A DNA stretch of 64,000 nt from Bremia lactucae (Eukaryota; Oomycota; Peronosporomycetes; Peronosporales; Peronosporaceae): assembly GCF_004359215.1 (NCBI RefSeq), contig NW_027152213.1, positions 1,114,535 through 1,178,534 of the forward strand. Reading direction: 5' to 3'. The translations under genes and the position numbers were made by a program. The notes below the pieces were generated by a model. It had not been told where the DNA came from. It made no database searches and was given only the letters and a program-made list of their open reading frames with translations. Shown one piece after another: positions 12,155-44,253 of this stretch. How positions within the stretch are numbered: the stretch's first letter is position 1; each line of letters begins with the position of its first letter.

Positions 12155-14520
12155 TACAGGACCGAGTTGTTGATGGCAAATTCTGCAAACGGCAAGAACA
12201 CAAATTGACTAGTAGACGAGTGAACGTATCCTCGAAGTATCTCTTCGAGGATACGATTTAAATGCTCTGTCTGACCATTTTTTCTTAGAATAATCAGATG
12301 CTAAAACCTGTTACCGTGTTCCAAGTGAACTGAACACGGATTGCCAAAGTCTGTCGTAGACCAGGGATTTTCCAACCGAAATCAGTTTACTGGGTTACCC
12401 GTCAAGTCGAAATAGCGTGTCGATAAAGACACGAGCCAGTTTCTGGCTGTGATCGGCTTTGGGGCTCAATCTTTTAAATGACTTACAAACACAAGAATAT
12501 CTGTATTATTGTGAGCGGCTTCGGGAAACCCGAAAACGAAGTCCATTGATACGGACTGCCAGCACTCTGCCGAAGCAGGCATTTATTGAAGCAGGGGATG
12601 AAGGGCTAGACTTCCCTGTTTAAAATCTTGCAAGCACGTATGTACTCACCCACGAACTTATACTGGCAGAGCCAGCAAAAGCCGCACTCTGATGTCCGGC
12701 TTCTGACGTCCACAACGCCCACTTATTGGTGCATCTTGACACTCATGCATTATTCGCAAGCGGAAATCTCTATGAGTTGACGACGACGCATGTGTTTCGC
12801 CGGAAATGGCTGCATAATAGAGTTACCCGTTGCGTGTTAAGTATCGGTACGACAAAGATCAGTACAATGTCGGCAACCCTTGAAGGATCATTGTGCTGGA
12901 TTTGAGGCAAGGACTTCTTTGTCGTGCACTGAGTAAACACGCTCAGCTGGTTGCAGCTGAAGCGACTGATAGCACGCTTTGCGCCGTATGTGTAATTTTG
13001 CTTGAGATCACAGCCTATAGTGAAGTCGCTGGCGTGTCAGAGCACATGAAATGGCCTATCTTGATCAACAATCGCCAAGATCCGCAATTGCATTAAGCTT
13101 GGCCTGATACCTTTAAAAGGAGCGCTGACAATCAGCCTTCCATGACCACTTCATCTTTTCTCTTAAGTAGACAAGAAAGATACACTGTCCTTACAGCACA
13201 GATGCGCGAGTATTTGTGCTAGTACGCTGCCAAGCCGAGAGAATTTCGAAGTCCTTCGACATCGACTGGCAGGTCATTCCCGACTTTCCTTTCATTGCTC
13301 GTCTATGAACTAAGACAGCATCGAAATAACTCCGTGCAAAATCTCGCACCGATCTCAACAGATTAATAGCACATCTGTTAAATGTTGCAGGGGCGTTACT
13401 AAGGCCCTGTGGTATCACTAGTCATTCCCAAAGCATATCGCTTGGGATGCTCATTGCTGTACAAATGAATATCCTGTTCACTCAGAAGGATCTTATAAAA
13501 TTCATCCATCAGATCAATTAACGAAAATCGATGGAACTGTTTGACATACCGTCAATGATTACGTCTTTTCTCGCTATCGGCTTTCGAGCCGGTAGCGTTG
13601 CAGCCTTAAATCTATTAAATGCATGCACAATTTGCCACCATTCTGTTGCCCTATGCACACAGAAGATCGGATAGCTATGTGGGGGGGGTGACTCCCTCGC
13701 ATGCCCCGCGGCTAAGCGCTCAGCACAGAACTTGTCGATCGTTGATACTTATTTAAGATGCAGTGACCACTGCTTCATGACACAGTATTTAAAATCTGCT
13801 ATCAGGTCAATCTAGTGTCGAGAGCCTTCATCCTCAGGCTCCTTGCATGGTTCCGATTCAGAGAACAGATACTTGCATTTGATCAAATCCTAATATAAAG
13901 AATATGTTTTTTTCAACGACTCCCAGGATTGAGACGTTAAATGGTTAATCGAGTCTTCTCATCGAGGACACTATCGTCAATGGGTAAGCTGCTGAGAGCC
14001 CATTGGTTATGATGAAATACTATGGGCGACCGAATATCGACCACGTACTTGTCAACAACTGACTAAGTGTCGTGTATGCTGGGCATACTTGTGTAAATCA
14101 CGCTTGCCCTGCTTCAAATCCAGGAACTCTGCTCGAGCCCAGACTTCGGGAAGTGGCAACTTGAACGCTTCATTGGGCCGGATCTTATCGTGAAGCTTGA
14201 GCTCTAAGGCCCATAAATTTGCACGCCCAGCCAAGTTGGCCATGCCGAATTTTACTTCCGACGCAAAACCTCAATACGACGAGTAATAATCGCATCTCAA
14301 GCTCGACGAACCATCGCAACAAGGAGTCACCTTCGACTGCCTTGACTTTATAGATTTTGATCTTCAAACTTTCGTGTCGACGCGTGCGCGTCAGCCCGGC
14401 AGTAGCATGTGTATGCTGCCGTCTCAACAGTGTCAACTTTCGTGAGCCTTGCTGCTGATACGAAGTTACTTCTCACGGGCCGCGTCGGGTTAATGTTGAA
14501 TAAACTCGGCGATAGCCCCA
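12155..14520 (-). pseudogene. Ty3/Gypsy family A fragment: integrase, RNase H, RT and gag remnants
   Basis: Minus-strand relic. Integrase sequence (12159-12760) matches the copy at 46.1-46.7 kb. RNase H (about 12780-13180) follows, then reverse transcriptase near 13418-13191, where PQGLSNAPATFNRC and a degraded RSYFDAVLVH (normally containing the catalytic YFDD) are readable. Gag sequence (about 14520-14052, AGRANLWALELKL) then follows directly, so the protease segment is missing. Stops and frameshifts are scattered throughout and no LTR is recognised at either end. The first CCTCGAAG...CTTCGAGG hairpin of the integrase region is still perfect. Confidence 0.72.
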
Positions 14521-18728: not shown

Positions 18729-19150
18729 ATCTGCCAAAAGCATGATGAGTTGCCACGCTTGACTGAAGCTGCTCTTTGTGCTTGGGCAAAGCATGAATTT
18801 AGCCTACCAATGCCTCCTACATAAAGCACAATAACCTCCATTTTGAAAAAGCGATGCGAATATGAAGCTATGGGCTCAACCAGCCTTGAGGTAAGGTAGA
18901 TTGCTATTCGAATTTTTCTTATTTACACAAATGGCTGCTGAGATGTATATGAACTTTGTAGCGCACTCGCACTGCCAAACACTCCGAACTAGATCAAGGC
19001 TTGCAGAGGGGTCTCTTCAACGCGAAGCCCGGCTTACAACAGAGCTTATCAAGTCAAAAGGTGAAGCGTTCGCAGAGCGCCTAAATATCGAAAACGCGCC
19101 ATCCGTCTCAAATAGATGGATTAAGAAGTTTAAGTCTCGCCAGGCTTCAA
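18729..19150 (+). pseudogene. pogo-type transposase, N-terminal DNA-binding part
   Basis: Two DNA-binding modules are readable. The first is a psq-type helix-turn-helix (LTEAALCAWAKHEFSLPMPP followed, after a stop, by STITSILKKRCEYE). The second is the end of a CENP-B-type HTH (FAERLNIENAPSVSNRWIKK). The reading frame is cut at 19150 by the left LTR of the nested Gypsy element and resumes at about 27790. Stops and frameshifts make it non-functional. Confidence 0.75.
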
Positions 19151-19589
19151 TGTAACGGGGCACTACTGACTTGTTCTGCTTCAGTACAAGTCCACTCCGC
19201 ACTTCCTCAGTGCGAGTGGTGCCTCAGGTCACTTCACGTACACTAGTACGTGCAGAGGAAGACTCTCTTTAAAGCACTTGCTTTATAGAGAGTTAAAAGA
19301 AAATCTGTATTTAATGTAATTTAAGTTCTTCTGTTTCTATCTATTTTATACTAACTTAATTATAAACTAATACAAAACATGTCATAAAGCCTTATCTGTC
19401 TCTCTCTTTGCGAGCGTCCAGCGCTGACTGGCGGAGAAAATAGGTATAATAGTCTATATCTACCAATGGATAAGCTTTTAGAATATTTATATGTAAAGTA
19501 ATATTCTCCAAATAGTATCTACCTTTTAGATAATACGTTAATTAACAACCTTTAAGTGTTTTTTTCATGTAACGATACACCCCGTCACA
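19151..19589 (-). repeat. family A LTR, leftmost (3' LTR of the composite)
   Basis: 439 bp, starts TGTAACGGGGCACT and ends CCCCGTCACA, matching the LTRs at 22605 and 27349. A GA-rich polypurine tract lies just inside it at 19590-19605 when read on the minus strand, which fixes the element orientation as minus and this as a 3' LTR. The left flanking pentamer is TTCAA; the right flank of the composite is TCCAA. Confidence 0.85.
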
Positions 19590-19605
19590 TCACCCCTCCC
19601 TTAAA
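19590..19605 (-). other. polypurine tract of family A composite
   Basis: On the minus strand this reads AAGGGAGGGGTGA directly before the LTR, the expected position and composition of the plus-strand DNA primer of an LTR retrotransposon. The equivalent beside the LTR at 22605-23044 lies at 23045-23058. Confidence 0.75.
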
Positions 19606-19721
19606 AGACAATCACTCTGACTGTCATTGGGTAGAGTGGTCACTATAAGAACACTCAGTTAAAAACGATGTTGATTGGTCAGAACCATCATTTTGAATTT
19701 TAGTGCATTGTTAACAAGTCC

Positions 19722-20251
19722 ATGCGGTATGCGAATAGTGCGGCGCCTTCGGCTGCGGCTCATGCAGCCGCGGGCGACGCATTATTGTCGCATGCGGCAG
19801 ACGTTCCGTGTGTCGTAGTGTCATCTTCTCCCGAACTTTATATGTTGCGAGTGCACGTGGTGATACACCACGTGAATGCGACCCCTCTTTGGAGGTCGAC
19901 TACGATTGCGAGTCGGACGAAATGGCCGACTCGGGGAGAACAGAACAGTCGCCTGATCATCGTCAGGCAGCTGACAACGAGCCTTCGAATGAGGGAGCTC
20001 ATTCGGGTAGACGTGCTGGTAGCATCCGCTACAGCTTGTTCGGTTCCGACGATGAGGATGATTCCTCATCGCCAGCTCCGTCTCCCGTGCCGTCACCCAC
20101 ACATATTTCTGTGCGTGCTGATGACGATGGCGTAAGCTATCGTAATAAAAGTTCTTGTGGTACCCCTGCTTCAGTGGGTACCACTCAGGGGATCGTAGAC
20201 ACTAATATGTCTCGTCTTGCCCCTGAGAAGAAGCCGTGGCTTTTGCCCTAA
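19722..20251 (+). pseudogene. antisense ORF of family A, frameshifted copy
   Basis: Second copy of the ORF at 23159-23704, about 90% alike by eye. The upstream ATG of the other copy is ATT here, and a single-base deletion near 19834 breaks the frame, so the remainder continues in the next frame to the same C-terminal PWLLP and stop. It lies on the strand opposite to gag-pol. Confidence 0.6.
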
Positions 20252-20434
20252 CAGTTAATCAATAGCTAGTCTGGAGAGACTACTCCTCATAATAAATATC
20301 CCTTATTTATTGCGACAAAGCTACATGGCCTTGATCCCAGCGCGAAGAACTTTCGCGCTGAGGAAGGTTTTTATCTCGATGCTTTTTTAAGCATCGATGG
20401 TATACTGGCAACAATAAGCGAGATAAAATCTCGC

Positions 20435-20815
20435 TTATGCAAGCCTGGAGGGTGTCTGGTCTTGCATGAAAATTTTTATATCTTGCTGAATCTGTCTACA
20501 AAAACAAGGATTTCCATTGTTTTTGTGATCGTCTTTCGGAAATCCAAGGACGAAGTCCATAGATACGGACTGCCAACATTCTGCCGGAAGTGGTAGAGGT
20601 TGGAGAGGTGCACGGGGTGAAGGGCTAGGCTTCACCCGTTGACATACCTCGCAAGCACGAATGAACTTGCGCACGAATGTACTTGCGCACGAACTGATAC
20701 TGGCGGGGCCAGTAAAAGTCGCGACTTACTGTGAGATAAGTTTTCTCACGTCCACGATGTCCACTTGTTGGTCTTTGGGCACTCATACATGATGCGCAAG
20801 CGCGAATCATTGTAC
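20435..20815 (-). pseudogene. family A integrase N-terminal remnant
   Basis: Contains the end of the integrase zinc-binding region (CEVCQRVKPS) and the start of the catalytic core (SVSMDFVLGFPKDD), then breaks off. Near-identical to 23888-24302. It joins abruptly to family B gag at about 20815, so the left half of the composite is a chimera. Confidence 0.7.
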
Positions 20816-21990
20816 AACTTTGAGCTTAGGGGTAGCTTCAGAGTCCGCATCATTAGGGCATTTCGACCCTACTGCACTTCTGCATTTCCCGACCCCTCAG
20901 TCGTTGATGCAGAACTCAGGCATCTCGCACGCAAGTTCTTGCCGTCGCCCTTTGGGTAGGGAGTCCTCTTGCTGGGCGTCTTCGCCCCAACAGGGACCCT
21001 GGCATAGCAAAGAGCCATCATATGGCCGCGCTTGCCCGCATTTTAAACAGACCACGTCTGCATTGCCCAACTTCAAGGGAGTGGCATCTGACCTCTCGGC
21101 CGACGGCTTATACCAAGCTATCGCCGAGACACAGCTGTAGGATTGCTCCTCAACTAAGGCAATTTGGATTGCCTTTTCCATCGTCGATGGCACCTTTCTG
21201 AAAAGGACCTGTTGCGATGGGCCATGCCGTAGTTCGTTCAAAAACATGGGCACCTTAATGTGCTCCGGGATCTGACCTACAGTAATGGACGCCGACAGCG
21301 AGCGCATCTCTTGCACATACTCTTGCAGAGATCGCTTCGCCTGTCGCGGTCCAAAGAGGCGCGCCTGAAGCAACACTTCGTTGTTCGGCGGCTGGTACAT
21401 GGCGCGAATGTTTTTTTTTAAGATCGCCCATGTAGGGAACGCCTTTCTGTCCGCCATAAGCGCCGAGTAAGCCCACTCTGAGGCCTTACCACGCAGATGC
21501 GACATGGCGTACGACACCATCCGTGATGAGATGCGCGACACCGCATTGCTCCACAGCTAACAGCTTGTGAACATTCGTGTTCGCTGCAGTTCCATCCGAA
21601 TGGGCCTCAGCTGATGCGGCCGGCAGAGAGCATCTTAACAGTCCTGATAAGAGCCTCGCTCCAAGCTTGCTCATGCCTCAGCTCATCCTGAGTCTGAGTG
21701 ACGGACTCCGCCGCAGCATGGCTATGTGCCACGGACACGGCTCTTCGCTGTCCGAGCACGAATGTCTCAAACTTCTCCAACTGAGAAACATGTTGCTCAA
21801 AAGTTTGGCCAGGGCTTGTTCACCAAGTCCCTGCGCCAAGTGCCCTGCCACCTCCCGATGATTCTCGGAGAGGTGGGGAAACGAGCCCAATCGATGTTGA
21901 GGCTCATCCTCACGTACACACGCAGAGATGCGGGTCGTGGGAAGGATATCAAGCGCTACGAAGTGTAAGCGGCACGTCTTATTATGGTAA
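20816..21990 (-). pseudogene. Ty3/Gypsy family B gag
   Basis: Minus-strand gag of a second Gypsy family. The main open segment (21541-20897) carries the retrotransposon gag signature (RLFGPRQAKRSLQEYVQEMR) and one half of a zinc knuckle (VVCLKCGQ). The N-terminal part continues in other frames up to about 21990. The + strand copy at 54.4-55.2 kb matches closely (ARQAKRSLLEYVQEMRSLSA). Pol is absent, replaced by family A sequence at the low-coordinate side. Confidence 0.72.
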
Positions 21991-22102
21991 CGCTCTACTT
22001 AGACACACACCATAGCATAGCGAGGACGCGGTTAAACCGTCTTCTCTTGCGTGCAGTGAGGTAGTTGTGGTGGGCGCCTTAGAGACCTCACCCAACGCAC
22101 TT

Positions 22103-22166
22103 AAAAGTGTCGTCACGGGAGCGGTGATCCGGCTCCTCGGATTATCGCTCCCGTGACGACACTTTT
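22103..22166. repeat. 21-bp perfect inverted repeat (hairpin)
   Basis: Arms 22103-22123 and 22146-22166 are exact reverse complements with a 22-nt loop that itself contains ATCCG/CGGAT. It sits at the inner edge of the family B LTR. The corresponding part of the other family B copy (near 54.32 kb) keeps only one recognisable arm. Confidence 0.8.
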
Positions 22167-22167
22167 A

Positions 22168-22512
22168 CCGCACTTACCAAGTTGGAAGCAGCTTTCAGAA
22201 TGACATAAATCTAATCGTATTAAATTTATGTACCTATTTTTACCAATCAGAAATGTCATCGGTGTGGATAATTCTATTATGTATGGCTAGCTTATCTTTC
22301 TAGATACCTCGCGCAACGGATGACGCTAGCCGTCATCCCTCCTAATGTGAATGCACCTATGTGCATCACATACACATGAGCTGGTCACAAATGTGAATCA
22401 CACCCGAGTGGTGGGTCTAATTACTTAATTTAAGTAATTGACCATCCCCTTAAGTACACCAAGTGTACTTAACGGGGATTGTGTAACATTCGGGCAACTT
22501 TAGCCCGTTACA
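22168..22512 (-). repeat. family B LTR (minus orientation, inner boundary approximate)
   Basis: The outer end on the minus strand is TGTAACGGGCTAAAGTTGCC, matching the TGTTACGGGCTAAAGTTGCC start at 54020. Shared internal words include the GGATGAC...GTCATCC hairpin and GTGATGCACATAGGTGCAT. 22513-22604 between it and the next family A LTR is unique-looking sequence. Confidence 0.7.
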
Positions 22513-22604
22513 GAATTGGTCAGAGAATTCTCAAGCGCCAGGAATTAACGCTGAGTACTTTATCTAGGAGGCGGAATACAAGAGATGTTTGATATGAGCA
22601 AAGT

Positions 22605-23044
22605 TGTAACGGGGCACTGCTGACTTGTACTGCTTCAGTACAGGTCCACTTCGCTCTGCCTCAGTGGGAGTGGTGCCTCACGTCACTTCACCAACACTTG
22701 TACGTGGAGAGGAAGACTCTCTTTAAAACACTTGATATAAAAGGGTTAAAGATTACTGTATTAAATATAATTAAGTTCTTCTCGTTTTATATCTATTTAT
22801 GCTAACTTGTTTATATACTAATAATAAATATGTAATAAAAGTCTTATCTGTCACTCTCTTTGCGCGCGTCCAGCGCTGACTGTACCGCGGAGCAAGTAAA
22901 TACAATGGCCTAAATCTACCAATGGATAAACTTTCCGAATATTACTTTGTAAAGTAATATTTCTTAATATTCTCTACCTTTTAGATAATATATTGATTAA
23001 CAACCTTTAAGTGTTAATTTCATGTAGCGATGCACCCAGTTACA
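22605..23044 (-). repeat. family A LTR, middle
   Basis: 440 bp, TGTAACGGGGCACT to CCAGTTACA, followed inside by a GA-rich polypurine tract on the minus strand (23045-23058). It serves as the 3' LTR of the more complete family A element whose 5' LTR is 27349-27789. The left flank AAAGT does not match the right flank TCCAA, so this element has no target duplication of its own. Confidence 0.85.
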
Positions 23045-23158
23045 TCACTTCTCCTTAAAAAGACAATCACTCTGACTGTCACCGAATAGAGTGGTCACTA
23101 TAAGAACACTTATAAAAACGATGTTGATTGGTCAGGACATCATTTTTAATTCTATCGC

Positions 23159-23704
23159 ATGGTTAACAAGTCCATGCGGTATGCGAATAGTGCGGCGCCT
23201 TCGGCTGCGGTTCATGCAGCCGCGGGCGACGCATTATTGTCTCTTGCGGCAGACGTTCCGTCTGCCGTAGTGTCATCTTCTCCCGCAACTCTAAATGTTG
23301 CGGGTGCACGTGGTGATACACCACGTGAATGCGACCCCTCTTTGGAGGTCGACTACGAATGCGAGTCGGACGAAATGGCCGACTCGGGGAGAACAGAACA
23401 GTCGCCTGATCATCGTCAGGCGGCTGACTATGAGCCTTCGAATGAGGGGGCTCATTCGAGTAGACGTGCTGGTAGCATTCGCTACAGCATGTTCGGTTCC
23501 GACGATGAGGATGATTCCTCATCGCCAGCTCCGTCTCCCGTGCCGTCACCCACACATATTTCTGTGCGTGCTGATGACGATGGCGTAAGCTATCGTAATA
23601 AAAGTTCTTGTGGTACCCCTGCTTCAGTGGGTACCACTCAGGGGATCGTAGACACTAATATGTCTCGTCTTGCCCCTGAGAAGAAGCCGTGGCTTTTGCC
23701 CTAA
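23159..23704 (+). CDS. antisense ORF near the 3' LTR of family A (181 aa, unknown)
   Basis: Intact ATG-to-TAA frame on the strand opposite to gag-pol, starting 114 bp inside the LTR. The protein is low-complexity: an Ala-rich start, an acidic middle (CESDEMADSGRTEQ), a Ser/Asp/Pro tract (FGSDDEDDSSSPAPSP) and a C-terminal PWLLP. No membrane segment, signal peptide or domain that I know. The LTR upstream could act as promoter on this strand. Plant Gypsy elements of the Tat lineage carry antisense ORFs at a similar place, but I see no sequence likeness. A 12-nt palindromic style (for example CACGTGGTG/CACCACGTG at 23307-23327) runs through it, so the open frame could be a by-product of hairpin-rich DNA. 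Confidence 0.45.
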   Translation: MVNKSMRYANSAAPSAAVHAAAGDALLSLAADVPSAVVSSSPATLNVAGARGDTPRECDPSLEVDYECESDEMADSGRTEQSPDHRQAADYEPSNEGAHSSRRAGSIRYSMFGSDDEDDSSSPAPSPVPSPTHISVRADDDGVSYRNKSSCGTPASVGTTQGIVDTNMSRLAPEKKPWLLP

Positions 23705-23759
23705 CAGTTAATCAATAGCTAGTCTGGAGAGACTACTCCTCATAATAAATATCCCTTAT

Positions 23760-23890
23760 TTATTGCGACAAAGCTACATGGCCTTGATCCCAGCGCGAAG
23801 AACTTTCGCGCTGAGGAAGGTTTTTATCTCGATGCTTTTTTAAGCATCGATGATATACTGGCAACAATAAGCGAGATAAAATCTCGCTTA
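23760..23890. repeat. run of three perfect hairpins after the antisense ORF
   Basis: Three consecutive 9-bp-arm inverted repeats: CAGCGCGAA/TTCGCGCTG, TCGATGCTT/AAGCATCGA and AAGCGAGAT/ATCTCGCTT. The block recurs at 20.33-20.44 kb and 44.51-44.65 kb with arms largely kept. The function is unknown; RNA structure near the 3' end of the element is one possibility. Confidence 0.75.
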
Positions 23891-26090
23891 TGCAAGCCTG
23901 GAGGGTGTCTGGTCTTGCATGAAAATTTTTATATCTTGCTGAATCTGTCTACAAAAACAAGGATTTCCATTGTTTTTGTGATCGTCTTTCGGAAATCCAA
24001 GGACGAAGTCCATAGATACGGACTGCCAACATTCTGCCGGAAGTGGTAGAGGTTGGAGAGGTGCACGGGGTGAAGGGCTAGGCTTCACCCGTTGACATAC
24101 CTCGCAAGCACGAATGAACTTGCGCACGAATGTACTTGCGCACGAACTGATACTGGCGGGGCCAGTAAAAGTCGCGACTCACTGTGAGATAAGTTTTCTC
24201 ACGTCCACGATGCCTTTTTTGTTGGTGCATCGTGACACTCATACATGATTCGCAAGCGCAAATCGTTGTGAACGGCGACGACACGTGGAGTGTCGCCGGC
24301 AACGGCTGTGTAATACAATAAGCCGTTGCGTGTTGTGTATCGATCGGATGACGATCGATATAAAGCCGGTAAAGCTTTAAAAGATTTATCGGATGAATTC
24401 ATCGGATGATCCATTATACGCAGAAAGACCTTATCTTCTGCGTAGGCTTGCTTTATGTCTTCAAACAAGGTTGATGACGGAACACTTGAAATGAGTTTTG
24501 CAACAGTGGGATTAATTTCACTGTTGGGGTGCACTGCTGACTCGAAATCGGGTCGGCGTGATAACGCATCAGCGACGACATTAAGTCGTCCTGGTTTATA
24601 TTCGGCGGGGAAGTTATACTCCGCGAAGAAGGATAGCCACCTCGCCATTCTTTGCGAGAGGTGTGGGCTATTTACGGCCGTGCGTAATGACGCATGGTCC
24701 GTATATACGATAAACGGTCTATCTCCGAGGAGATAGACCCTAAACTTAGCCAGTGCAAAATACATGGCAAGGAGTTCCTTGTCATGCACTGGGTAGTTGC
24801 GTTCAGCTGGTTGCAGCTGACGCGATTGGTAGCAGACGACGCGCTCTGCGCCGTCTGTATCGTATTGCATTAACGCACAGCCGATTGCGAAATCGCTGGC
24901 GTCACAGACCACATGGAATGGTCTGTCTTGATCGCAATCGCCAATGTGTGCGATTGCATCAAGCTTTGCTTGATATCTTCAAAGGAACGCTGACAATCAG
25001 CTTTCCATAGCCATTTCTCGTCTTTTTTCAAGAGACGAGAGAGATGAACTGTCATCTCGTCATAATTGCGGGAGTACTTGTGCAAGTACGCCGCTAATCC
25101 AAGAAACTTTCTAAGTCCCTTGACATCGCCCGGAACTGGCCAGCCGGTAATTGCCTTGATCTTTTCGGGACCCAAGAAGTGGTATTTCGCTTGCAGCGAA
25201 TATACACTTCTTTAGATAAGTGTAAGAACCTGACGAACGTGAGTTTTATGAGCTTCCACGTCCGTCTTTCCGTCCATGGCCCGGCTATGGACGAATACAT
25301 CGTCAAAACCCCTGCAACATTCAACAGATTTGTTATGCATCTGTTGAATGTTGCAGGGGCGTTACTAAGCCCATGTGGCTATACTAGCCATTCCCAGAGC
25401 ATCGCACTGGGAGTGCTCACTGCTGTGTACGGGATGTCCTGTTCACGCTTAAGGATCTAATAAAATCCATCCATCATATCCATAGACGAAAAGATGGTAC
25501 TCTTAGACATACCATCTATGATTACGTCTTTTCTAGGTATCGGCGTTTGAGCCGGTACCGTTGCAGCATTCAGTTTATTGAATGCGTGCACTATCCGCCA
25601 CCCTCCTGTGGCCTTTCGCACACAGAAGGTCGGAGAGCTATGTGGGGAGGTTGACTCCCTCACATGGCCCGCTTTTACTCGATCGGTAAAGAATTTATCG
25701 ATCGCAAGTACTTGTTCACGAGGCAGTGGCCACTGCTTCATGACACAGTACTTCGAGCCCGGTTTGAGCTCGATCTCATGTCGAGTGCCTATATCCTTAG
25801 GCAACTCGCATGGAAATGTTTCAGGGAATGCATCCCTGAATTCAATCAAATCCTTGTAAAAAGGATTTGAATTAAGTGGCCTTCAGGATTTAGTAGTATG
25901 TCTCTCAATCCAAGTTTTCACATCGAGGACACTTTCGTCTATCGATGAGCTGCTGAGAACCCGTTCGTTCTCTGCAAAAATTCCCGCTGACCGAATATCG
26001 GTTTAATATTCGTCCTCTGTGATGAGTACGCAGATCGGCTTGATTCTTTCACTATGCAGATCTCTCAAGAACCGCTTGGGTTCTGGGATA
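23888..26090 (-). pseudogene. family A pol: RT, RNase H, truncated integrase
   Basis: Minus strand. Reverse transcriptase starts in 25849-25457 (RHEIELKPGSKYCVMKQWPL, the HSSPTFCVRKATGGWRIVH fingers and STIFSSMDMMDGFY). Thumb and connection follow (25175-24870, GLRKFLGLAAYLHKY). RNase H is at 24912-24199 (SDFAIGCALMQYD, FIVYTDHASLRTA), then the integrase zinc-binding region and the first core strand (24302-23888), where it is truncated. Stops and frameshifts separate the pieces, including one in the region of the RT catalytic YxDD. The protease is deleted upstream. Confidence 0.82.
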
Positions 26091-26269
26091 CCTCATCACC
26101 AGGTGCTGAGACACATAATGACTGTGTGTCTGGAGCAACTTTAGTCAAGAGATTTGCAAATTCTCTTGAGGTTGCTGGACCAGTAGGGAGTTGCGCCCCT
26201 ACTGACCCCGACCGTTTTTTGGCGGTCCGCCTCGCTGTTGCAATTTCGCAACAACATCGCACCCGCGAC

Positions 26270-27298
26270 CGTTGCCCTTTTAGGCATTCGGTCCAGAATT
26301 ACGCTCAGTACCTCTCGGTACTGGGCGTGGGGCACTACACTCATGAGCGTAGTGTCCTAACTTTTGACAGCGATTGCATTTCTGCAATCGCTTGTTGCTC
26401 GAAAAGCGAGGTTTCTCGCTTTCGAAATAAGAGAGGTCCATCGGTTCTGGACCTTCCAGTTCGTGTCGTCTTGGAGTACGATATGATGACGAACTAGCTT
26501 GAGCCTGTCTCAAGCTTAAGTCCTCCTGTTCCGCAACGGATATTGCTTCTTCAAGCGTATCCAGTTCCAAGCGGAACAGGTGGGTCCTTACGGGACCATC
26601 CGTAAGACCTTGCATTAACACCGTAATCAACGTCTGTTCGTGGAGTGGGTTGTTTGTGATACAACTCGCCACGAGACGTATATGCTGGGCATAAGTGTGC
26701 ACATCACGCTTGCCTTGTTTGAGTTTTAGCTCTCATCGAGCTCTCAACTCAGCCCTAGGCGGTTCAAACGTCTGTTTCAGCCGGGCTTTAAAAGCCTCTA
26801 GCGACCCAAAGGCATATTGGTCGAGCAACTTAAGGCCTAGTGCCCAAGTTTTGGCACGACCTGCCAAATCTGACTGAGCAAATACGACTTGCATTGGCTC
26901 GTCGACGATGTGACAAGCCCTTATGGCATCGCTCAACTCGACAAACCTACCTAAGAGGTAGTCTTCTTCGACTCCCCTATACTTATAGATGTCAATCTTC
27001 AAGGTTTCGGGACGACGCGTGTGCGTCATCCTAGGTACCTCAACAGTTCTGCATGTTGAGAGCCTTGCTGATTAAGCCAGGCTACCTTCTCCTTCGCCTC
27101 GTCAAATTCATGTTGTATGAACTTGGCGATGGCTGAATGGAGGGCATCTCTGTCCAAACCGGACAGCATGGCCAAGATGGCAGCGATTCCTACGGTCGAA
27201 TTTATTCGTTCGACCGCACTCCTTTCTATGTCACTTAGAAAGGAGTAGCTATCACGCGAAACGTGATGCGTATTTCCATTATCATCTAACATGTCCAC
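26270..27298 (-). pseudogene. family A gag with CCHC zinc knuckle
   Basis: Three frame segments: N-terminal (27298-27026, MDMLDDNGNTHHVSRDSYSF), capsid-like retrotransposon gag (27029-26733, WALGLKLLDQYAFGSLEAF) and C-terminal (26702-26280) with an intact CX2CX4HX4C knuckle (CNRCQKLGHYAHEC). Two frameshifts break it. The zinc-knuckle codons form a perfect 10-bp inverted repeat (26369-26378 with 26383-26392). Confidence 0.82.
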
Positions 27299-27333
27299 GT
27301 TAGATGATGAAACTGTGGTCCTTGGACGGACTA

Positions 27334-27346
27334 CAAAGTGCTACCA
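27334..27346 (-). other. primer-binding site candidate of family A
   Basis: Two bases inside the 5' LTR the minus strand reads TGGTAGCACTTTG, starting with the TGG complementary to a tRNA CCA end. The + strand copy has TGGTAGCACTTT at 62075-62086, at the same spacing. The matching tRNA was not identified. Confidence 0.65.
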
Positions 27347-27348
27347 GG

Positions 27349-27789
27349 TGTAACGGGGCACTACTGACTTGTACTCCTTCAGTACAAGTTCACTCCGCAC
27401 TGCCTCAGTGCTAGTGGTGCCTCACGTCACTTCGCGTACACTAGTACGTGCAGAGGAAGACTCTTTCTAAAACACTTGCTTTAAAGAGGGTTAATTACAA
27501 TCTGTATTTAATGTAGTTAAGTTCTTCTGTTTCTATCTATTTAATACAAACTTAATTATAAACTGATACAAAACATGTAATAAAGCCTTATCTGTCTCTC
27601 TCTTTGCGCGCGTCCAGCGCTGACTGGACCGCTGAGAAAGTAGGTATAATGGTCTTTATCTACCAATAGATAAGCTTTTAGAATATTACCATGTAAAGTA
27701 GTATTCTCCAAATATTATCTACCTTTTAGATAATGTATTAATTAACAACCTTTAAGTGTTAATTTCATGCAACGATACACCCCTTTACA
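27349..27789 (-). repeat. family A LTR, right (5' LTR)
   Basis: 441 bp, TGTAACGGGGCACT to CCCCTTTACA. Right flank TCCAA compares with TTCAA left of the LTR at 19151 (4 of 5 bases), so the target duplication belongs to the whole 19151-27789 composite rather than to the inner element. Confidence 0.85.
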
Positions 27790-28500
27790 TCCAAGGCTTT
27801 CAAGTCGCATGGTGAGAGCGGATCTGCTGACATAAAGACGATCGAAGAAGCGCTACCAACCCTGAAAAAAAACCTACAGAAATAAGAGCTACGCGACATT
27901 TACAATGTCGATGCGATTGGTCTATTCAATCGAATGCTCCGGACAAAACAATTGTGCGCACGCGAATCGAAGGCTCAAAGAAAGATAGAACAAAATTTAC
28001 TCTTGGCTCCACAGCAAATGCAGATGGTTCCCATCGGCTCAGACTGTTCATCATCGGTCACGAGCGAAAACCTCGAGCATTTAATAAAAAATCTGACGAG
28101 CTGGGAAGGCAAGCAAATTCTTCCAAGAGCGGCTAAAGCGCTATAACGATGAAATAAAAAACAAATTGACAAGTCGCACTTCTGTACGATATGCGCCTTC
28201 GCACATCGTTGGGGAATTTCTAATGTTGAGTTGATCTCGCTCCCGCCAAATGCAACATCAAAGATTCAGCCTATGGATGCTGGAATCATTGCAGCTTTAA
28301 CGCCGCTATTGTCGCTAACAACTGCAGGACGCGCTAGAAGGGGAGGAACAAGGTGCTACCAATATTTACAAAGCTGACCAGCTTACGGCAATGCGCTGGA
28401 GCAAAGCTGCATGAGAAAAGCTGCCAGAATCGGTCATCGCTAATAATTGCTTTATACACACTGGACTATTCGACAATCTAATTCAAGCGGCACTGAAGCG
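27790..28500 (+). pseudogene. pogo-type transposase, DDE catalytic part
   Basis: Continuation of the transposase interrupted at 19150. Readable in shifting frames: the IYNVDAIGLFNRML counterpart of the first catalytic Asp motif (the usual following E is A), NADGSHRLRLFIIGHERKPR, the region before the second Asp, LPPNATSKIQPMDAGI, and the C-terminal AMRWSKAA / NNCFIHTGLF. Several stops. Together with the N-terminal piece this identifies the pogo/Tigger lineage. Confidence 0.82.
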
Positions 28501-29059
28501 GACCTCGACACAGAAAAATTAGCAATCGAAAACGAACTTCAAGATGCGTTCGACTCCCTTCATATTCGCCATCCCATGGCAGTCGCGAGCCTTTTAGTTC
28601 TAATCGAGGAAGCGTAGGGGGCGCACGTTGAGCTGACGGACAACGAGCTGATAGAATTGCTGTCAGGCAACGTAGGCAAAACAGATCCCGAGGTTTCCGA
28701 CGATGACGACGAGTCAGACGAAGTAAGTTTGCAAGTTTGCTAATTTCAGTGCAGCTGACTGCTGCGTGCGTTATGGGGAAAATGATCAACGTTGATAACG
28801 AGATCACACAACAGCGCTGAAGGTCCTGCGTAATCTACAACGCAAAATTGGCGCACAAAAAGCACGCCAGACATTCCTAGATGGTTGGTTTACAAGATAT
28901 ATATAGACCTTTTCTAACATAATATCCTATTAGAAATTTTTCAAATATCAATTAACAGAGGATATAAGTTATGGCCATAGAAACGGCATTAATAAACGTA
29001 AAAGTATTGGTTATCAAAGGATATTGCTTTTCGGAGGATCATTATCGGAGGTTAGACCG
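28501..29059 (+). other. 3' part of the pogo-like transposon
   Basis: Decayed transposase tail and untranslated end, finishing in the terminal inverted repeat. No separate gene seen; a 109-codon minus frame here matches nothing I recognise. Confidence 0.5.
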
Positions 29060-29105
29060 TATGTTAACAATACCGTCAAGTCTTGCATATCAAGTGCATA
29101 AATTG

Positions 29106-32100
29106 CTAATTGGCCTCAAATTTCCTAAGCTGGTCATAGATTAGTCTAAGTGGCTGCGTTGCCTCTTGGTTGTCCGGAAAAAAACTTAAGAAGTGTTCAA
29201 GCTGGCATACCCATGGAAGTAGCAAGCGCGGGAGTGCAACAGCGTCATTTTCGATCCCTACAACGCTCAGAAATGACCGAAAGACCTCGTGATTAAATAC
29301 AACACCGTAAGCCAAGTCGGCAAGCGCCAGACTGTGGCGCACTGCATTCCCTCGCACACCATACCATACCAACTCATCTGTGATATAGTAGAAGTCAAAG
29401 TACAATGCTCGATAAGACTGCACTAGCTGATGTAGGTCGTCTCGACTTGGTGTCATTTCGACGCCTTCCGCTTCGTCAAAGACCTTCGTGGCTGCTGGGA
29501 CAAGATTTCGAGGGCTTAATGGAGACACTAAATCAAGCGCGTTTTCAAACTTATTCAAGACTTCAACCAGAGATGACTGGCTGGTAGAACGCATTGTTGC
29601 TACGAGCGTCTTTTCATAGTACGACATTAACCATTTCCATGTGTGCTCATAGTTCTAAAGCGATACAAAAGCGTTTAGCGTTGCCACTTCATTCATACCT
29701 TATTTACGAACCTGGAGAAACTTGGCAACAACATCTTCTAACGCCGAAATGGGGTAGCTCTCACTTATATTTGGTGGGATATAGAAGCTTGCGACACTGC
29801 TGTGGCATGCACAAATGCGTAAGTAAATTAAATTCAAGAAAATAGTGTCCATACCTGCAAGTGAAACACAGTGTCACTTGATAGTGCTCCGCAAACTGTT
29901 TAATATTGTAAAGCGTGACGTGCTCCTTGATGCTTTGGTCCCAAAGCTGGTGAAATTTCCTGAGCGCCGCGACGTCCGGCTTTACTTGAAATACTGCTGC
30001 ACTCTGCGGCTGGATAGTCACTAGTAATGTTGGTCTCCGCCCAGCGCATACTCCATGGTCAAGCAAGTCAATCGAGGAGGCACCTGGCGTGGACAAAGTT
30101 TCGTCAATCACCACACTAAAAAAGACGCTGTCGTTTCGTAGAGCAAGCCGAGCTTGCAAATCACTTCTGGTATTTCGTACAACAAGATACTTGTGCATTC
30201 CATCGATAGCTTCTGTTGACAGATCAAGGTTAGAGATTGCTGATTCCAGCATAGGAAAAACCAAGCCTAGAAACGGTGACTGGGCCGAAAAGTACGTATC
30301 CGTTCGTGAAGGAGAATCAAGAGCTTCACCATTTGCAACATCCACCATCAGCTGAGGCTGACTGCATATTGCGCGGATAAAAACAGTTTCCCTAAAATCT
30401 TTCACTAGCCGGCAGCTCACATACACTTCAATTTCCCGCACCCAAGGCTCATTTACTTGAGTCTCCGACAATACGTTGCTAGATAAGGTTGGAAGTACAA
30501 CTTGTTTCGGCTGAGGACGAAATTGCAAGAAAACTTGTATGCTTGCATGAGACCCAAGAGTGACTGTATTAATCTCGTTCAAGGACATTGGCGAGGCTGA
30601 AAAGCTGACCTCTTGTGGCTTAGCATTTGTCGACAAAATAAAGTCTAGACTTAGTCCAGATGAGTTTTCAATCATGATTGAGTGGTTTTGGTAGACCTTA
30701 TGGTAGTAGACCTCACCAATATCGATGTTCAGTCTTGAAGCACCAGCAACGCTTTTTTCTGGAAATATCACAATACTAGACCGCCGTGAACGCTTGGGGC
30801 TGCTGTGATTTGATACGAGTACGCGAAACAAGTTTTTTCCTGGATCTAATCCAGAGGACATTCCGCGAAGCGAGTTTAAATCCGCAATGACTTCCAATCT
30901 CACATGTATCACCTTAAGGTCGGACGGGTTCACCAAGTTTTGAAGCACCAAGAATGTCGAGTACACTCCCACCACTCCTCGAAGGAAGTAAAGAACTACG
31001 CTTTGATAGCTATGCGCTCGATCGAGTGTTCCTCGTTCACGGCTAAGTTGCAACCACGACCGGGCATTCTTGTCAACAAGCATCAGGCGATATTCCACTG
31101 ATTCAATAATGGCTAGATCTACGGCACTGTAAATGCTCTCAATCGTAATTTCCCACTCCACCTCTCCACCATTGCGAACAGTATGCTGACCCGCGTCGAT
31201 AAGGTATCGAGTATTTTCTAGCGACGAATATTCTGCCGGTGTGCAGCCACGTATGGATAAAATAGGTAAATGATTTTTACGCCCCACGAGTCCTGAGCGG
31301 ATCAAAGAAACGTCAAATTCCTCAAACTTATCCAGCTCCGATAATTTCGCTTGCTCATTTTGATCAACCTTCAGATGATTTTCTAATGGCGGACTAAGGT
31401 GCAGCTTACGAGATTGCGTCAATCGCTTTTGGCGAGCCTCGAACGCTGCAATAATCAGCGGTATGTCTAGTACGACACCTCCTTGCTTCGCTGCATCTCC
31501 AACCGATCTTTGTTGCTGCAAAACGAGTGCAATTCTGACTTCAGTTGACTTTCCAGTGTCCACGTTTGAGTCTCTATCTTGAACAGTCAATACCATGTGG
31601 TTCAGACCACCTTCATTTGCCACTGGCTCTTGTCCATCCGCATCCCACGAATTACTCCGCCATTGGCGCATCTTACGCATGGAGGCTTCTTTATCAGCGA
31701 TGCCTACTTCAAAACTATTACGAATCGGAGCCATATTTAACGATGTAGTAATTAAATCCATTGATGCTTCCTCAAGATGCACCGTGATTTTCAAGGATTC
31801 CCCTGGTGTAACTGTGCCCGAAGAAGGAACAGCTATCGCCTGAATCCATTCCACCATTGCACATATTTCCGACTCTGTTGAACCCTCAACTAGGCATAAG
31901 CCAGGCAGGTACATGGACACTGGACTGATGACAAAATTTAGGTTTTCCAAGGTTGACGGATTCCTTACCCAAAAGCTTTCGTTGGAGTTTCGTAGATGAT
32001 GCACAACAGAAGCAATTATTCGAGGTGACGCAATTGGTGGCGTATTCGAGGAAGATTCCCTCATTGTTCCCGCCTTTAGCCTTAAAGGCGGTGGCAGTTG

Positions 32101-35100
32101 ATCAATTTGTAGATCAGGTGGAATCTCAATCGCTGTTGCGAAAAAATGAAGGCTATCGGCGGACAATACTAAAGTTTTACCAGGCAGCAGCTGTCCTTTG
32201 ACGTGAATTTCTTCGCGCTGGGCGGCATCCTCCACGTTATGAATATTTATGTGAAGCTGGATTCGTCCCAGATCAAACATATTTAATGAGGTGTCATTAC
32301 TCCCAGTTGGCCACGTGTCTGCCAGAAAGCGAGCAGACGGAAGGACAAGACACACAACGCGAATATCTACCGATTCACCCGGTGCAATTACAAGCGAATT
32401 TAATGGTGTGTTCGCAGAACGTAGCATTACGAGCAGCTCAAGTGTACTACAATAAATGATATGAGCGAGTTTTAGGAAACAAAATGGAAACAATTTAGGA
32501 ACATACCGGTCGAAAGAGTTGTGTGCTTGTGATAAAATTTTGACACTTAACTCGTCGTCGTAAACGTTTCGAAGCGAAAACCAGAAGCTTGAACGGTGAC
32601 GAGGACTTTCTTGTGGCGTCGGCACTGTTACTGGAGGAAGAAAAGCAACGTGCTTTTCCTTTATTGTAGTCATCTCTCTTCCGTCTTGCAAGCTTTCAGG
32701 ATCTATCACCAACTCGGCGTATCTTGAAATTACTTGAGCTCGGACTAGTACGTTCTCATGATTGCATGGATTGCTTAGATTATAAAAATTAAGTGAAAAT
32801 TCGTGCGTGCCTGCTGTCAAAGACTGTTGCGGCAGAACAAATTAAAACAAATATATAGTCAGTCCATATCGATAAATTTCTGACATGTCGACGTGAAATA
32901 GAAGAATTAATTAGGTACCTCTTTCGTCCGCACAAGCTCCATCTCAAGCAAACATGAATCCCTCGGCTGTATATTCCACGCGGCCCAACCTGAAGTATTT
33001 CTTCTTTCCGTAGATTTCCCAGCACGGAGTGCAAGCAATCGAAGTGAAGGGACATGAAGCATAGGATCAAGAGCCGCGTCATCAAGCAATTGTAAACGAT
33101 TACCGCCACGAGCATCGAGAACATGAAGGCAAGGGGGAATGTTGCTCATGACGATGGGGACAGATACATCAGACATATTTTTCACACAAATTTGAAACGT
33201 TGATGATTTCCAGCCAATACCATAGCCAATTTTTCCGAGCGAAAATAGTTTTTCTTCAATATCGAACAGCGGCTCGCAATAAGAACCTAAAATGTTAACA
33301 GCTGCCAAGGTGCATACCTCGTCGAAATCGGTGTCTTTGGCGCTTTCAAGGCTCTGAATTGCAATTATACCTTGGAAAGGGCACAGTTTCCCATTACCAA
33401 CTGTGTCAGTAAGTAATGGTGTAGTGGCAAAGTCCGCAAATCCAAACGATAGCAAATACGAGCTCTTCGCCCGCAAAACATAAGGTTTCCCATAATAATA
33501 TTGCAAACAGAGCGGCGAGAATGAAGTGCGTGACCTTTTTGGGCTGGTAACTAAGATGGACCGAGCCACCAAATCGCTCTTCTCAGAGATAGCTTCGACC
33601 ACCTCACCTTTCCATTCAACAGCCAATGGCAATGTACTGAACGGACGCACCACTATAGATTGCTCTGTTGTGTTTGAGATCATAAGATTTTTTGAGGTAA
33701 GTTGTGCGTCCGGTGGTGACATCAATTGAACTGATCTGCAACTCTCCATTTCAACAAAGTGACCACTGCTATGCTCTCCATAAATTCGGTATTTTCGACT
33801 TGCGGATTCGTGGTCCCCTCCAAATGGTGCACATCCGTCCGTCAACTCGTCCTCTAGCCTAATCACATTAACACATCCAATATCTACGCTTTGCAGGGAT
33901 TCACGAGCCATATCAAATCTTTGTCCGTGTAGGATCATTTGTTCGGCTGCCGCAGCTGCTACATCACATTTCAATATTCCACTATCAACGAAGAGCACGA
34001 CGTCGACAAAGCTAAGTTTTCCCGGATAGTGGACATTTTCCACCATGATACGGCTCCGAAAAAGTCCATTTGTATATGCCATTACACGAAACTCAACAAG
34101 TCCAGTTTCACCGGGCAAAATTTCACCCTTCTCGTGCTTTAGGGATATGTGAAGGGAATCGTCATCGTCAGAGTAGTTCTCTGTAGCACTCGTCAGAAAA
34201 ATTCGGTATCTGAACGGTAGTGCCTTGCTCAAATTAATTAGTTCAAAGCTAGCTTCATGCGTTTGACACATTTGCAGCTGGCCACTATTATATTCCACCC
34301 CGAGGTCAATTATTGAAGGAGTCACTCGAGCGATACTTGCACCAGCGATGCCGACAAATTTGACGGTAAATTCAGCCACCATGTCGCTTTTCTCTTCTTC
34401 TTGTTCGTCGGAATTCAGCTGTAGCCCAAATAGCTGTACACGAATACCACCAAAAAGGTCGCGCGTCGAACCTGATTTTATAGCATCCAAAGATACCCGC
34501 GGACGTATTGCAACGTATAGATCAATTGATTGTTTTCCTTTCATGTAAACACGAGTTGCTTCATGATGCAGGCGTGCGTCTTCGTAGACATAGCACTGAG
34601 TCCTCAAATTTGATGAAGCACATATTATCAACGGATCTTCAACCTGACTCTGTAACGTAAGCTTGTGCACTTTACTAAACCTACACGAGGCAAAGGGGCT
34701 GTCCACAGCAGTGTCTTGCATCTCGGGTGTTACATAACATGGACCTAAATCGAGAATTTCTAGCTGGCCTGTTGATTGCGGGTCCAACTCAGGAACTCTA
34801 ACATATACTGGCCGTGAAATCCGAACTGATATGACCGCAACCGACGTATCAAGGCGGTCTCCATTAAGGTTTCGTAAGAAAATTTGCTCAGTGTGTTGTC
34901 CAGGCGCACTGCCTCTGTACACAAATGTAGCTCTTACGGAACAGCCTGCTTCTATGGTTCCTGTTGCGTTGTCAAACGTCATCTCACCTCCGACAAGATA
35001 AGGAGGACTGAATGACGAAGTACTTACACTGCCTTGATCACGAGACCCAGCCAATAAAACATATTGAAGAGCTTGATGTGATCTATTATAAAAAACAAGA

Positions 35101-38100
35101 TGGCTCCTAACATCCTCACCCAGCTGATGCTCACCCAAATCGAAAGTTTCCATTTCAAAATACAGTGATCTATGAGTACCCTTAGCCATTGCTACGCCCA
35201 CGGACGAAAGCAAAATAGGCATCGTCTGGTCGAGATTATCTTGCGGTGAGCTGCTTGAGTGGTAAAGAAAATCAATCTGACCGGCACATAATTCCGTGGA
35301 TTTCGATAGATTTTCCAAAATTGATCGGCCCACACAAGACGCCAATGGGGTTGATGACGCGAAGCCTGAATTGCTGGTAAAACACCACTTAAACTTCAGG
35401 TTGATTGTGCGATCAGGAAGAGCTTTGAACTTTAGCGGAAGCATTGTTCGCAGATCAGCACCCTCACTCGATTTAGTAGCAATCGACATTGCTCTTGGCG
35501 TACAACAATTATGACGAAAAAAATCACAAGTTAAAGCGAGCACAGATTTGAAATTTCCTGTGGGAGTCCATTTCACCTCTACAATTCCGGAGCCCTTATA
35601 CGATGGTGACCCAAGCGACAACGTCACCATCCATCCACGGGTGTTTATTGGTGATTCTTCTGCAAAGACAAGTAAAGTTGAACTTTCGGGGGATACACCA
35701 TATTGATCGGGAATATGCAAATCCAGCTTTTGTATTGTGTTACGGCAGTCAGGAATTTTTACTGTCAAATTGCGACGATGCTTCATTATAGACAAGTCAG
35801 TACCATAAAGTGCAGCCAAGGATGACAACGCATCGTCATGGCGTACGACCCCGCCACTTTCATGTGCTTTCCTTATACGGCCCTCTGTAGAATTATCGTA
35901 AGAAGACGCCTCTCCGGCGTTTGGATGCGGGGGAAGCACTGACAAAGGCTTTCGACCAACGGCACGGTAAAATGCAGTTTCTCCAGCAGGCGTCCGCAAA
36001 AATATTTCTGCATTGTATTCTAGCTCCTTGACTACGTCCTTATTCTGCTGCTCAAAAAGCAAAAACTTACCAGACCCCACCATAGGAATAGTATTCCGAC
36101 GTAGTAGTCGCTTTTCCATTCTTTGGCTTTTGTACACCCTTCTTTTATGATCATTGTCTGTATGATGCGAGTTATCGCCAGATCTCAATGGATTAAAAAT
36201 TGCATAGGCCACTATTCGTCCTGTTGCCTCAGCTCCAAGGGAAAAGTGCAACGTGTTCGTACGTGATGACCCAAAGCCGCTCTTTGCATCAGCAACGGGG
36301 TGATCAAATTGATTTGATCGTCGCCATCGCGAATGCGAGCTTAACTCTGACCCTGACGATTCTGAGTCACTATTAGCACTGTCGTATGGATCGAAATCTC
36401 CTACCTCTTTATTTTTGCCTCTCGGAATGGTTGTCATTTTCGGAGTACTACCACCTGATATTTCTGGTTCTCCTGCAACCTGCTCACCTGATAGTAATGC
36501 CTTGACATGCGAAATTTTAGCATTCAACTTGATAATTTTGTCCGACTTCTTTTTCGTAACTGCAATACGCAGCTTGTGTTCTAATTTTTCAAGCTCTTCG
36601 TCCAGCTTCTTCTCCTCAGCTTGAGTTATGACTTTAGCTGGAGTTTCATCAACAGAGAAATATATTGTCGGCCGCAACATTGGAGGCGTAAAGATAGAAT
36701 CCACTTGGATAACGTATTCACGCTTCTTGCGACTGGTGTTACGGATGGCAATTTTTACCTCCTTTGTCTTTTCCCCGACAAGGTACTTTCCGAATTCGAT
36801 TTTTTGGCCTTAATGAAATTTGAACAGGTATGTGGCCCCCTATTAGTACAGCGTTACTTTACAATATGAACATAGAGACATGTACCTGACTGAAGAAGCT
36901 TGAATGTTTCACGCTTGACAACCTTCGCCTTAATAGTGACTGACACTGAGTTCGCTGGATCTTGAACATTTATAATGTTCAGCTTTTCTTCGAACGGTCC
37001 AGCCAGGGTTGGCTGAAACTCAAAGCGAATTTCTTTTGTGCCAAACGTCTTAACTACTCCGACTTCTCCTTCCTTGATCTGAAGAAAGCCTGATGATATC
37101 GATCCTGTTTTTTCTACACTATACACTAAAGGAGTAGCAGACATGTTCTGCACAATAAGTCGTTTCGAGCTCTTTGAAGACGTGGCGATGCGCCCAAAAT
37201 TAATATTCTTCTGGTTCACATTCATTATCGAGCGACATATTCGACTCTTAAGCAGCAATTCTCTGACTGAAGCGCGCATATCAAAAGGATGAGTTGACCC
37301 AGCCCAAACTGATCTGCGGAGATTCAAATTATCCCCATTCGCTACAGCTTTCTTGTTTCCGCCAGGCGGAAGTGTAATCAGGATCTTATGCTTTTCTACT
37401 CTGGTCTTCGCAACATTCTTAGGAATGGCCGTCTCAGTAGCAATTGGACTAAATACCGCGACAATGCGTTGGCGCGCCTTTGCCGGGATGCGCAGATTGT
37501 AGTCTTTGTTGAAGCTTAACGGTATCAATTTTTTCTCCGCGCAAAGAGCCTGAAAGCGCTTTAATCGCTCTCGGACCAGCGACACAATTTCTTCTTCTTT
37601 TTCCTTTGACGGGATTGAACTGTGGCAAAATGCATCACACTCGGAACGAGACTTCGCAAAAAGCTGCAGCAGTGCTGAAACTTCTTCGGATGGACTTTCA
37701 TTGACTCGAGAAGTCTTTAATTCCGGCGATAAACCAGAGGCAGAAATATCAGGGCTCCTTTTCTTATCGTCTCCTGTGACTAACAAGATTTTTTTTTTGC
37801 TTTCTGTATCCCCAGCACTGCACTGGGTATGGCGACCTAGGTCACTTTCAAGATACTGACTTGAAACTGACCTGGGAATACTATATAAACTAGGTATGGT
37901 AGTTGGCGAAATTCCGACTTGAGCTGCTGATACCGCGGTCAGCTTTTTCGTCAAAAGTCCTCGAAGTGCTAAGGATTTTTTTTTTTTCGAGGTCACTTTA
38001 CCGTCACTAATTTCCGACAAGCTGCCAAATGATCTACGACGACGGATCGGCCGTCCAAGTGGCGGTTTGTATTTTTGCATTGAAGAAGTATTTGGATTTC

Positions 38101-41088: not shown

Positions 41089-41195
41089 CGGGAAAGAATG
41101 AAATGAAATTTAACAATGCAACAGGATTGGCTTAAGAAAATAATCTGAAAAGTAGCTTATCACATTGAGTATTTTTCCAACATCTTCTTAATTCC
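41089..41195. promoter_or_regulatory. 107-bp bidirectional promoter region
   Basis: The whole space between the start codons of the giant ASH gene (-) and CSN5 (+). It holds an inverted CCAAT box (GGATTGGC, about 41123-41130) and a pyrimidine-rich patch just before the CSN5 ATG. Such short shared promoters are usual in oomycetes. Transcription starts are not visible from sequence. Confidence 0.5.
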
Positions 41196-42275: not shown

Positions 42276-42345
42276 GCAGTGTAGTATTGCACCTTTATTG
42301 GACAATCAATAAATATGTATTCCGTAGATAAATTTTCCTGCCGCT

Positions 42346-44170: not shown

Positions 44171-44253
44171 GGGAGGCACAATTCTGATAGTACCTTTTCG
44201 CCGTACTGAAACACCTAAAATGCATTGTATTTGTGCAAATGCCGTGGAGGCAC

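Follow-up and report, generated by a model that had tools for sequence, protein, structure and literature searches.

Dense perfect hairpins in a Ty3/Gypsy-type retrotransposon lineage of Bremia lactucae, a likely product of template switching

The window described here, a stretch of 64,000 nucleotides of the genome of the oomycete Bremia lactucae, contains the copies A1 to A4 of a Ty3/Gypsy-type retrotransposon (family A), together with a copy of the related family C, an old relic (B) and host genes (Table 1). Copy A1 is tiled with short, perfect hairpins at a density far above the chance expectation, and the same pattern is found in other copies of this lineage. The assignment to the Ty3/Gypsy type is based on the paired long terminal repeats (LTRs) of A1 and on the domain order of copy A3, in which RT_RNaseH and RNaseH_2 are followed downstream, in one frame, by Integrase_H2C2, which is the Ty3/Gypsy order. 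The zinc knuckle in the gag fragment of A1 is matched by Pfam with an E-value of 5.7e-4, slightly short of the curated cut-off, and in A2 a Retrotrans_gag match with an E-value of 4e-13 is found, but this gag differs from the A1 gag. The reading frames are interrupted in the A1 copy (22605-27789), and about 1.76 kb of DNA that adjoins the integrase in A3 is missing from A1. Protein relatives occur in Peronospora, Phytophthora and Bremia among the best 120 of 977 matches, a Bremia lactucae protein matching with 85% identity over 54% of the query, and no DNA relatives in other species are found among viral or prokaryote contigs. The initial assembly of Bremia lactucae is described as having 115 Mb, with gaps amounting to 24 Mb and Gypsy elements to 53 Mb (PMC6570648). 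The present sample is from a 115.9-Mb assembly of 220 contigs, in which 40 of the 3774 first-look family candidates have been scored.

Throughout, a stem is a perfect inverted repeat with arms of at least 8 bp and a loop of 2-15 nt, unless another arm length is given. At arm lengths of 6, 7, 8, 9, 10 and 12 bp, A1 (22605-27789) has 96, 62, 38, 20, 9 and 1 stems, respectively, as compared with means of 13.0, 3.4, 0.6, 0, 0 and 0 in ten dinucleotide shuffles, and the loops of the stems pile up at lengths below 16 nt. The chance rate from these shuffles, about 0.12 stems per kb, is close to the value of about 0.2 per kb that the first-pass annotation of this DNA had assumed. The inverted repeats listed in that annotation are real, as all 13 of them match base for base, and several of them run one base further than had been described, for example 24299-24307/24321-24329. 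Between 24274 and 25212, where seven stems had been claimed, eight are counted, in addition to the repeat 25174-25212, whose loop exceeds 15 nt. The excess extends beyond the coding sequence: the 3' region, which includes an antisense open reading frame (ORF), has 11.3 stems per kb and the RNase H frame 10.3, while the density is 4.6 for 24979-26064, 6.2 for gag and 2.3 and 6.7 for the two LTRs.

Elsewhere in the window, 39 stems are found in 44001-50000 (0.6 in shuffles), 17 in 62001-64000 (0.3 in shuffles) and 17 in 19001-22604 (0.2 in shuffles), and the signal lies mostly in four blocks with element sequence, at 6-9, 19-28, 44-50 and 62-64 kb. In the 6-9 kb block, low-complexity A/T runs (6396-6451) account for 5 of the 15 stems; for the element hairpins, a microsatellite or low-complexity origin is rejected. 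Host DNA has at most a weak excess of stems and is not equally hairpin-rich. In 1-6000, no stem is found as compared with 1.5 in shuffles, and in 28001-44000 there are seven as compared with 2.4. The weak excess of the latter stretch falls among host genes (HYDIN/CFAP-like, CSN5-like and FHA) and is possibly due to ordinary template switching.

Codon-preserving shuffling (200 shuffles for each of 12 loci, six of which gave just a 7-codon frame, in the other orientation) yields means of 0.69, 0.54, 0.54, 0.51 and 0.58 stems for the open frames of 340-482 codons of the loci L048, L057, L060, L069 and L072, with maxima of 3-4 in 200 shuffles, whereas the observed numbers are 8, 12, 12, 11 and 13; for 71 codons of L047, which is copy A3, one stem is observed versus 0.07. 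Clearly, the observation survives both shuffle types (8-13 stems versus 0.5-0.7 when codons are preserved, 38 versus 0.6 when dinucleotides are preserved), and both reject codon or dinucleotide composition as its cause.

The pattern recurs at other loci of the assembly. The family A loci L001-L008, five of which have large N runs, hold 14-31 stems per 3.8 kb, and L047-L076 hold 2.5-9.2 stems per kb outside N, although a single copy may be covered by several of these loci, and L070 is nearly identical to L071. Stretches of about 1 kb from family C (window 7030-8200) and its relatives L077 and L078 have 7, 4 and 9 stems, respectively. In a reverse-transcriptase family search (L009-L038), 28 of the 30 loci have 0-2 stems, near their own shuffles, and the two exceptions, L022 with six stems and L025 with four, contain A-like LTR sequence. 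A domain scan of nine of these 30 loci identifies RVT_1 in all nine and an endonuclease domain in one, and no Gypsy-type RNase H or integrase is found at an E-value of 1e-8 in these nine; by their domains, the L009-L038 loci are probably mostly non-LTR elements. A general trait of the retroelements of this genome is not supported by these 30 loci, whose element type is mostly unassigned. Another Gypsy family, L079, has a smaller excess (3 stems versus 0.26 in 1 kb, L079:1-1001), at sites unlike those of family A. Eight arbitrary 5-kb stretches include one that is all N and one that is a family A copy with 21 stems, and the other six have 0-5 stems. An assembly or sequencing artefact at repeats could be suspected, given the numerous N runs of the genome and the difficulty of assembling such repeats. 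This is very improbable, since stems recur at one position in up to 32 of the 34 aligned core sequences, within long open frames, since 28 of the 30 L009-L038 loci of the same assembly have no excess, and since reads and assembly words would be much longer than the arms.

Table 1. Features of the window and individual hairpins of copy A1, in window coordinates
Feature	Position	Strand	Stems and remarks
Ty3/Gypsy-type copy A1	22605-27794	- (coding strand)	38 perfect stems
5' LTR of A1	27349-27794	-	84% identity with the other LTR; 3 stems
3' LTR of A1	22605-23046	-	Between A1 and the adjoining copy A2; 1 stem
gag fragment with zinc knuckle	26280-26732	-	Stems 26369-26392, 26403-26422, 26496-26516
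Reverse transcriptase part of A1	25322-25807	-	75% amino acid identity, 162 residues, with the RVT_1 frame of L079
RNase H frame (Pfam)	24199-24978	-	8 stems, 10.3 per kb
3' region, includes antisense ORF 23150-23704 (+)	23047-24198	-	13 stems, 11.3 per kb
Copy A2, in tandem with A1	19151-22601	-	3' part 19854-20637 hairpin-rich; differing gag ORF 20897-21556 with 1 stem
Copy A3 (L047)	44255-49792	-	Hairpin-rich
Copy A4	61817-64000	+	Opposite orientation; hairpin-rich
Related family C	7030-8900	-	66-82% identical to A in aligned parts; hairpin-rich
Old relic B	12159-14039	-	70-76% identical to A; stems of 8 bp: 0 in 12484-14039, 2 in 12159-12483
21-bp stem, loop 9	25309-25359		Longest stem of A1; missing from the list of the first-pass annotation
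11-bp stem, loop 2	24716-24739		One C.A pair (sense strand) in 21 of 34 core sequences
9-bp stem	24417-24444		L055: 10-nt loop inverted, arm lengthened to 14 bp
9-bp stem	24338-24360		L055: loop inverted, one further change
8-bp stem	24934-24957		Loop inverted in L050 and L070/L071
9-bp stem	24299-24329		Two-sided pair change C-G to T-A between subfamilies
8-bp stem	24501-24526		Two-sided pair change between subfamilies
10-bp stem in gag	26369-26392
9-bp stem, 3' region	23247-23267		Two pairs broken or wobble in A2
9-bp stem, 3' region	23307-23327		A2 identical
9-bp stem, 3' region	23610-23637		A2 identical

The copies A2 and A1 stand in tandem around a middle LTR (LTRs at 19151-19591, 22605-23046 and 27349-27794), and they are 92.6% identical over 1.67 kb, whereas the two LTRs of A1 are only 84% identical. 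The same segment of about 1.76 kb is missing from both at one junction (23908 in A1, corresponding to 44662-46419 in A3), and because this deletion junction is shared, the element may have been spreading in its deleted, non-autonomous form. The antisense frame of A1 (23150-23704, plus strand, 184 codons) has a counterpart in A2 (19739-20251, plus strand, 170 codons), and a Pfam scan of the A1 frame gives no match. A 16-nt tandem repeat adjoins a hairpin in columns 1069-1138 of the core alignment; it is single in most copies and present in more units in A1, L002 and L047.

The alignment of the 34 core sequences, used for the hairpin positions and for the comparison of loops, shows that loops have been inverted in place, that is, replaced by their reverse complement, at about 10 sites, with no more than a few copies affected at any of them. 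The inverted intervals are a 15-nt interval in L050, a 6-nt loop in L068, an 8-nt loop core in L051, a 5-nt loop in L061, 4-nt loops in L074 and in L048/L052, and a loop of about 5 nt in L050 and L070/71; in L055, one hairpin combines the inversion of its 10-nt loop with the extension of its arm to 14 bp, and a second loop, of 5 nt, is inverted with one further change. One more loop inversion is seen across families, between L058 of family A and L078 of family C. Arms have also been rewritten. In the 21-bp stem of A1 (25309-25359), one arm replaces the sequence present in A3, L002 and relic B with the reverse complement of its partner. Arm homogenization is seen in this stem and in that of L055, unambiguous cases being few. 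When 4574 clusters of multi-base differences are scanned, a nearby source in the reverse-complement orientation is identified for 28 clusters, some of these being one event counted in several sequence pairs, as compared with three for the reverse and one for the complement control.

These marks make it fairly likely that the tiling is explained by template switching at near-palindromes, with a renewal that outpaces point mutation in the active lineage. The replicating strand would repeatedly fold back, or jump, at short near-palindromes, take the opposite arm or strand as its template over some 10-30 nt, and then return. Imperfect inverted repeats would thereby be perfected, stems would be lengthened, the two sides of a pair would be rewritten together and loops would be flipped in place. 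Perfect hairpins with short loops would be attractors, being eroded by point mutation and renewed by template switching. As long as the lineage is active, renewal would win, giving about seven perfect stems per kb. Most of the hairpins would have been made by switching, and selection for structure would be unnecessary.

The other cause put forward in the first-pass annotation is selection for genome-wide RNA structure. In this view, secondary structure in the RNA or in the single-stranded complementary DNA would be selected, for example for packaging, stability or escape from host silencing, with the loop inversions then being a by-product that arises at any strong hairpin. It is in line with the strong folding of the element, whose sense strand has an RNA folding z-score of -13.4, as compared with 0.08 and -2.20 for two host stretches, with the presence of hairpins throughout the open-frame copies and with the finding that some hairpins are in common at 75-82% identity. 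It is also in line with the two-sided pair changes, which are in excess (23 of 238 column pairs; mean of 10.9 and maximum of 18 in 300 shuffles; 7-18 in slid controls). The antisense strand, however, folds nearly as extremely (z-score of -11.1). Selected RNA tolerates G.U pairs and not A.C pairs, and such a preference is not seen for the sense strand: stems with one mismatch have G.U in 46 and A.C in 52 hairpin families, the numbers in the core alignment are 13 and 13, and the cells within stems include 165 G.U versus 229 A.C. The majority of these mismatches occur in one copy each, and in dead copies they are neutral and therefore balanced under either view, so that they weigh little; the shared ones are few, three one-mismatch pairs being common to at least five copies, two of them A.C and one G.U. 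The arms are not more conserved than their surroundings, the divergence being 0.081 for arms, 0.082 for spacers and 0.106 for loops in 16 overlapping, non-independent comparisons of partly protein-constrained sequence with synonymous and other sites pooled. Furthermore, many hairpin positions differ between families. Thus, of the two causes proposed in the first-pass annotation, selection on RNA structure agrees with the sense folding but is weakened by the missing G.U preference and by the divergence of the arms, and is considered unlikely; for template switching by reverse transcriptase, the switching is borne out by the inversions, the arm rewriting and the scan that beats its controls, and the enzyme is suggested by indirect evidence. 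A mutational cause is better supported than selection on RNA.

The set of hairpins changes as copies diverge. When perfect stems are counted within the aligned parts of each pair, A3 and A1, at 89% identity, have 11 stems in common (of 21 and 15), A4 and A1, at 85-87%, have four (of 12 and 9), L077 and L078, at 86%, have two (of 4 and 6), C and L078, at 81%, have three (of 6 and 9), and C and L077, at 80%, have two (of 4 and 4). For A4 and L078, at 82%, all four of four and four are in common by position, one of them being a different hairpin; A3 and C have one in common (of 3 and 3), and A3 and L079, at 68%, have none (of 5 and 2). The hairpin sets are partly replaced while the density remains high. 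In a fixed interval, the stem count drops with the length of the private branch (rho -0.61, p 2e-4, 32 copies, relatedness being uncorrected), and this drop roughly tracks a neutral-decay simulation started from L060, which has seven stems. Relic B, whose closest relative among the 40 scored candidates has at most 77% identity, has two stems in 1.9 kb (12225-12255 and 12314-12339), each with a family A counterpart. These two adjoin the empty interval 12484-14039 and a long neutral decay would erase any others, so the relic cannot tell how rich in hairpins its ancestor was. Because stems fade in the older inserted copies, it is the replicating lineage that makes or keeps the hairpins, and insertion is followed by their loss. 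Decay of dead copies is rejected as their cause, as copies with open frames have hairpins and those with longer private branches have fewer.

The hairpins belong to the replicating lineage and are near-absent from the other reverse-transcriptase loci and from host DNA, which points to reverse transcription, by which the element itself replicates, as the step at which the switches would take place. Alternatively, the switches could be driven by host DNA replication or by cruciform-based events, the repeats being mere hot spots. The same signature is known from yeast genes and RNA genes (PMC8604942, PMC8794818), some inversions are confined to diverged copies, L055 and L050 among them, and the weak excess of the host stretch would also agree with such an origin. 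This alternative is quite improbable when considering that hairpins are fewer in the copies with longer private branches, that both of the only two stems of relic B are common to family A, and that the reverse-transcriptase loci with more than two stems are those that carry an A-like LTR.

Several observations weigh against the explanation by template switching during reverse transcription, or limit its reach. The loop inversions prove that switching happens, not that it made every hairpin, and a single large arm rewrite is unambiguous. When loops are grouped by arm (829 pairs), the contrast is weaker, with nine reverse-complement, four complement and no reverse cases, 4-nt loops being included. 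Two-sided changes and the persistence of hairpins are predicted by selection as well, and some hairpins are long-lived, as seen from the sharing between A4 and L078 at 82% and from the two family A hairpins of relic B. The stem counts of some copies lie above the neutral decay, slightly so for four copies near 8% divergence, which have 4, 5, 5 and 6 stems versus a simulated 2.7 (standard deviation 1.5), and also for A1 and L047, which have nine stems versus about five simulated. The preference for reverse transcription over host replication relies on indirect evidence, namely the lower number of stems in older copies. Concerning the reach of the effect, the Gypsy sampling outside family A and its relatives covers one family, with 1 kb of L079.

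Both marks of switching have counterparts in known systems. In chloroplast genomes, small inversions flip hairpin loops between conserved arms, the hairpins there being scattered, unlike those of the tiled coding element described here. RNA viruses can have a genome-scale ordered RNA structure along the whole genome; the present element differs in being without a sense wobble bias, in its perfect stems and in the nearly as extreme folding of its antisense strand. A study of 39 protein-coding genes across Saccharomyces cerevisiae strains describes ten spacer inversions (Abraham and Hazkani-Covo 2021, PMC8604942). As in family A, arm homogenization and in-place spacer inversion occur there at perfect inverted repeats with short spacers, and one case unites both marks, as L055 does; those are protein-coding genes, whereas here the hairpins are dense in one mobile-element lineage, and the words 'transpos' and 'retrotranspos' are absent from the main text of that paper by word search. 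Multiple linked two-sided changes, loop inversions and perfect stems made in a single event are likewise described for RNA genes (Monttinen and Loytynoja 2022, PMC8794818), as compared with an LTR retrotransposon here, and 'transpos' and 'reverse transcri' are absent from the main text by word search. A further paper deals with microinversions in human and chimpanzee (PMC8755829). By the titles and opening abstracts among the matches listed, no open-access paper is found that describes LTR retrotransposons as tiled with hairpins or as having inverted loops. The template-switch signature is therefore known, and what is new, within the literature searched, is its very high density and its Ty3/Gypsy setting.

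It is possible, as a tentative reading, that reverse transcription in one oomycete Gypsy lineage acts as a hairpin-making mutation engine, with template switches from one complementary strand to the other outpacing point mutation, and that the element has reached a selection-free steady state, in which hairpins are renewed, moved and flipped. Perfect stems and two-sided pair changes are normally taken as a sign of selected RNA structure. With a family of many copies in one genome, selection can be weighed against a mutational cause, the loop flips providing an independent mark of mutation. If the cause is confirmed, such elements would measure template switching per replication cycle directly, and covariation in mobile elements would require a mutational null.

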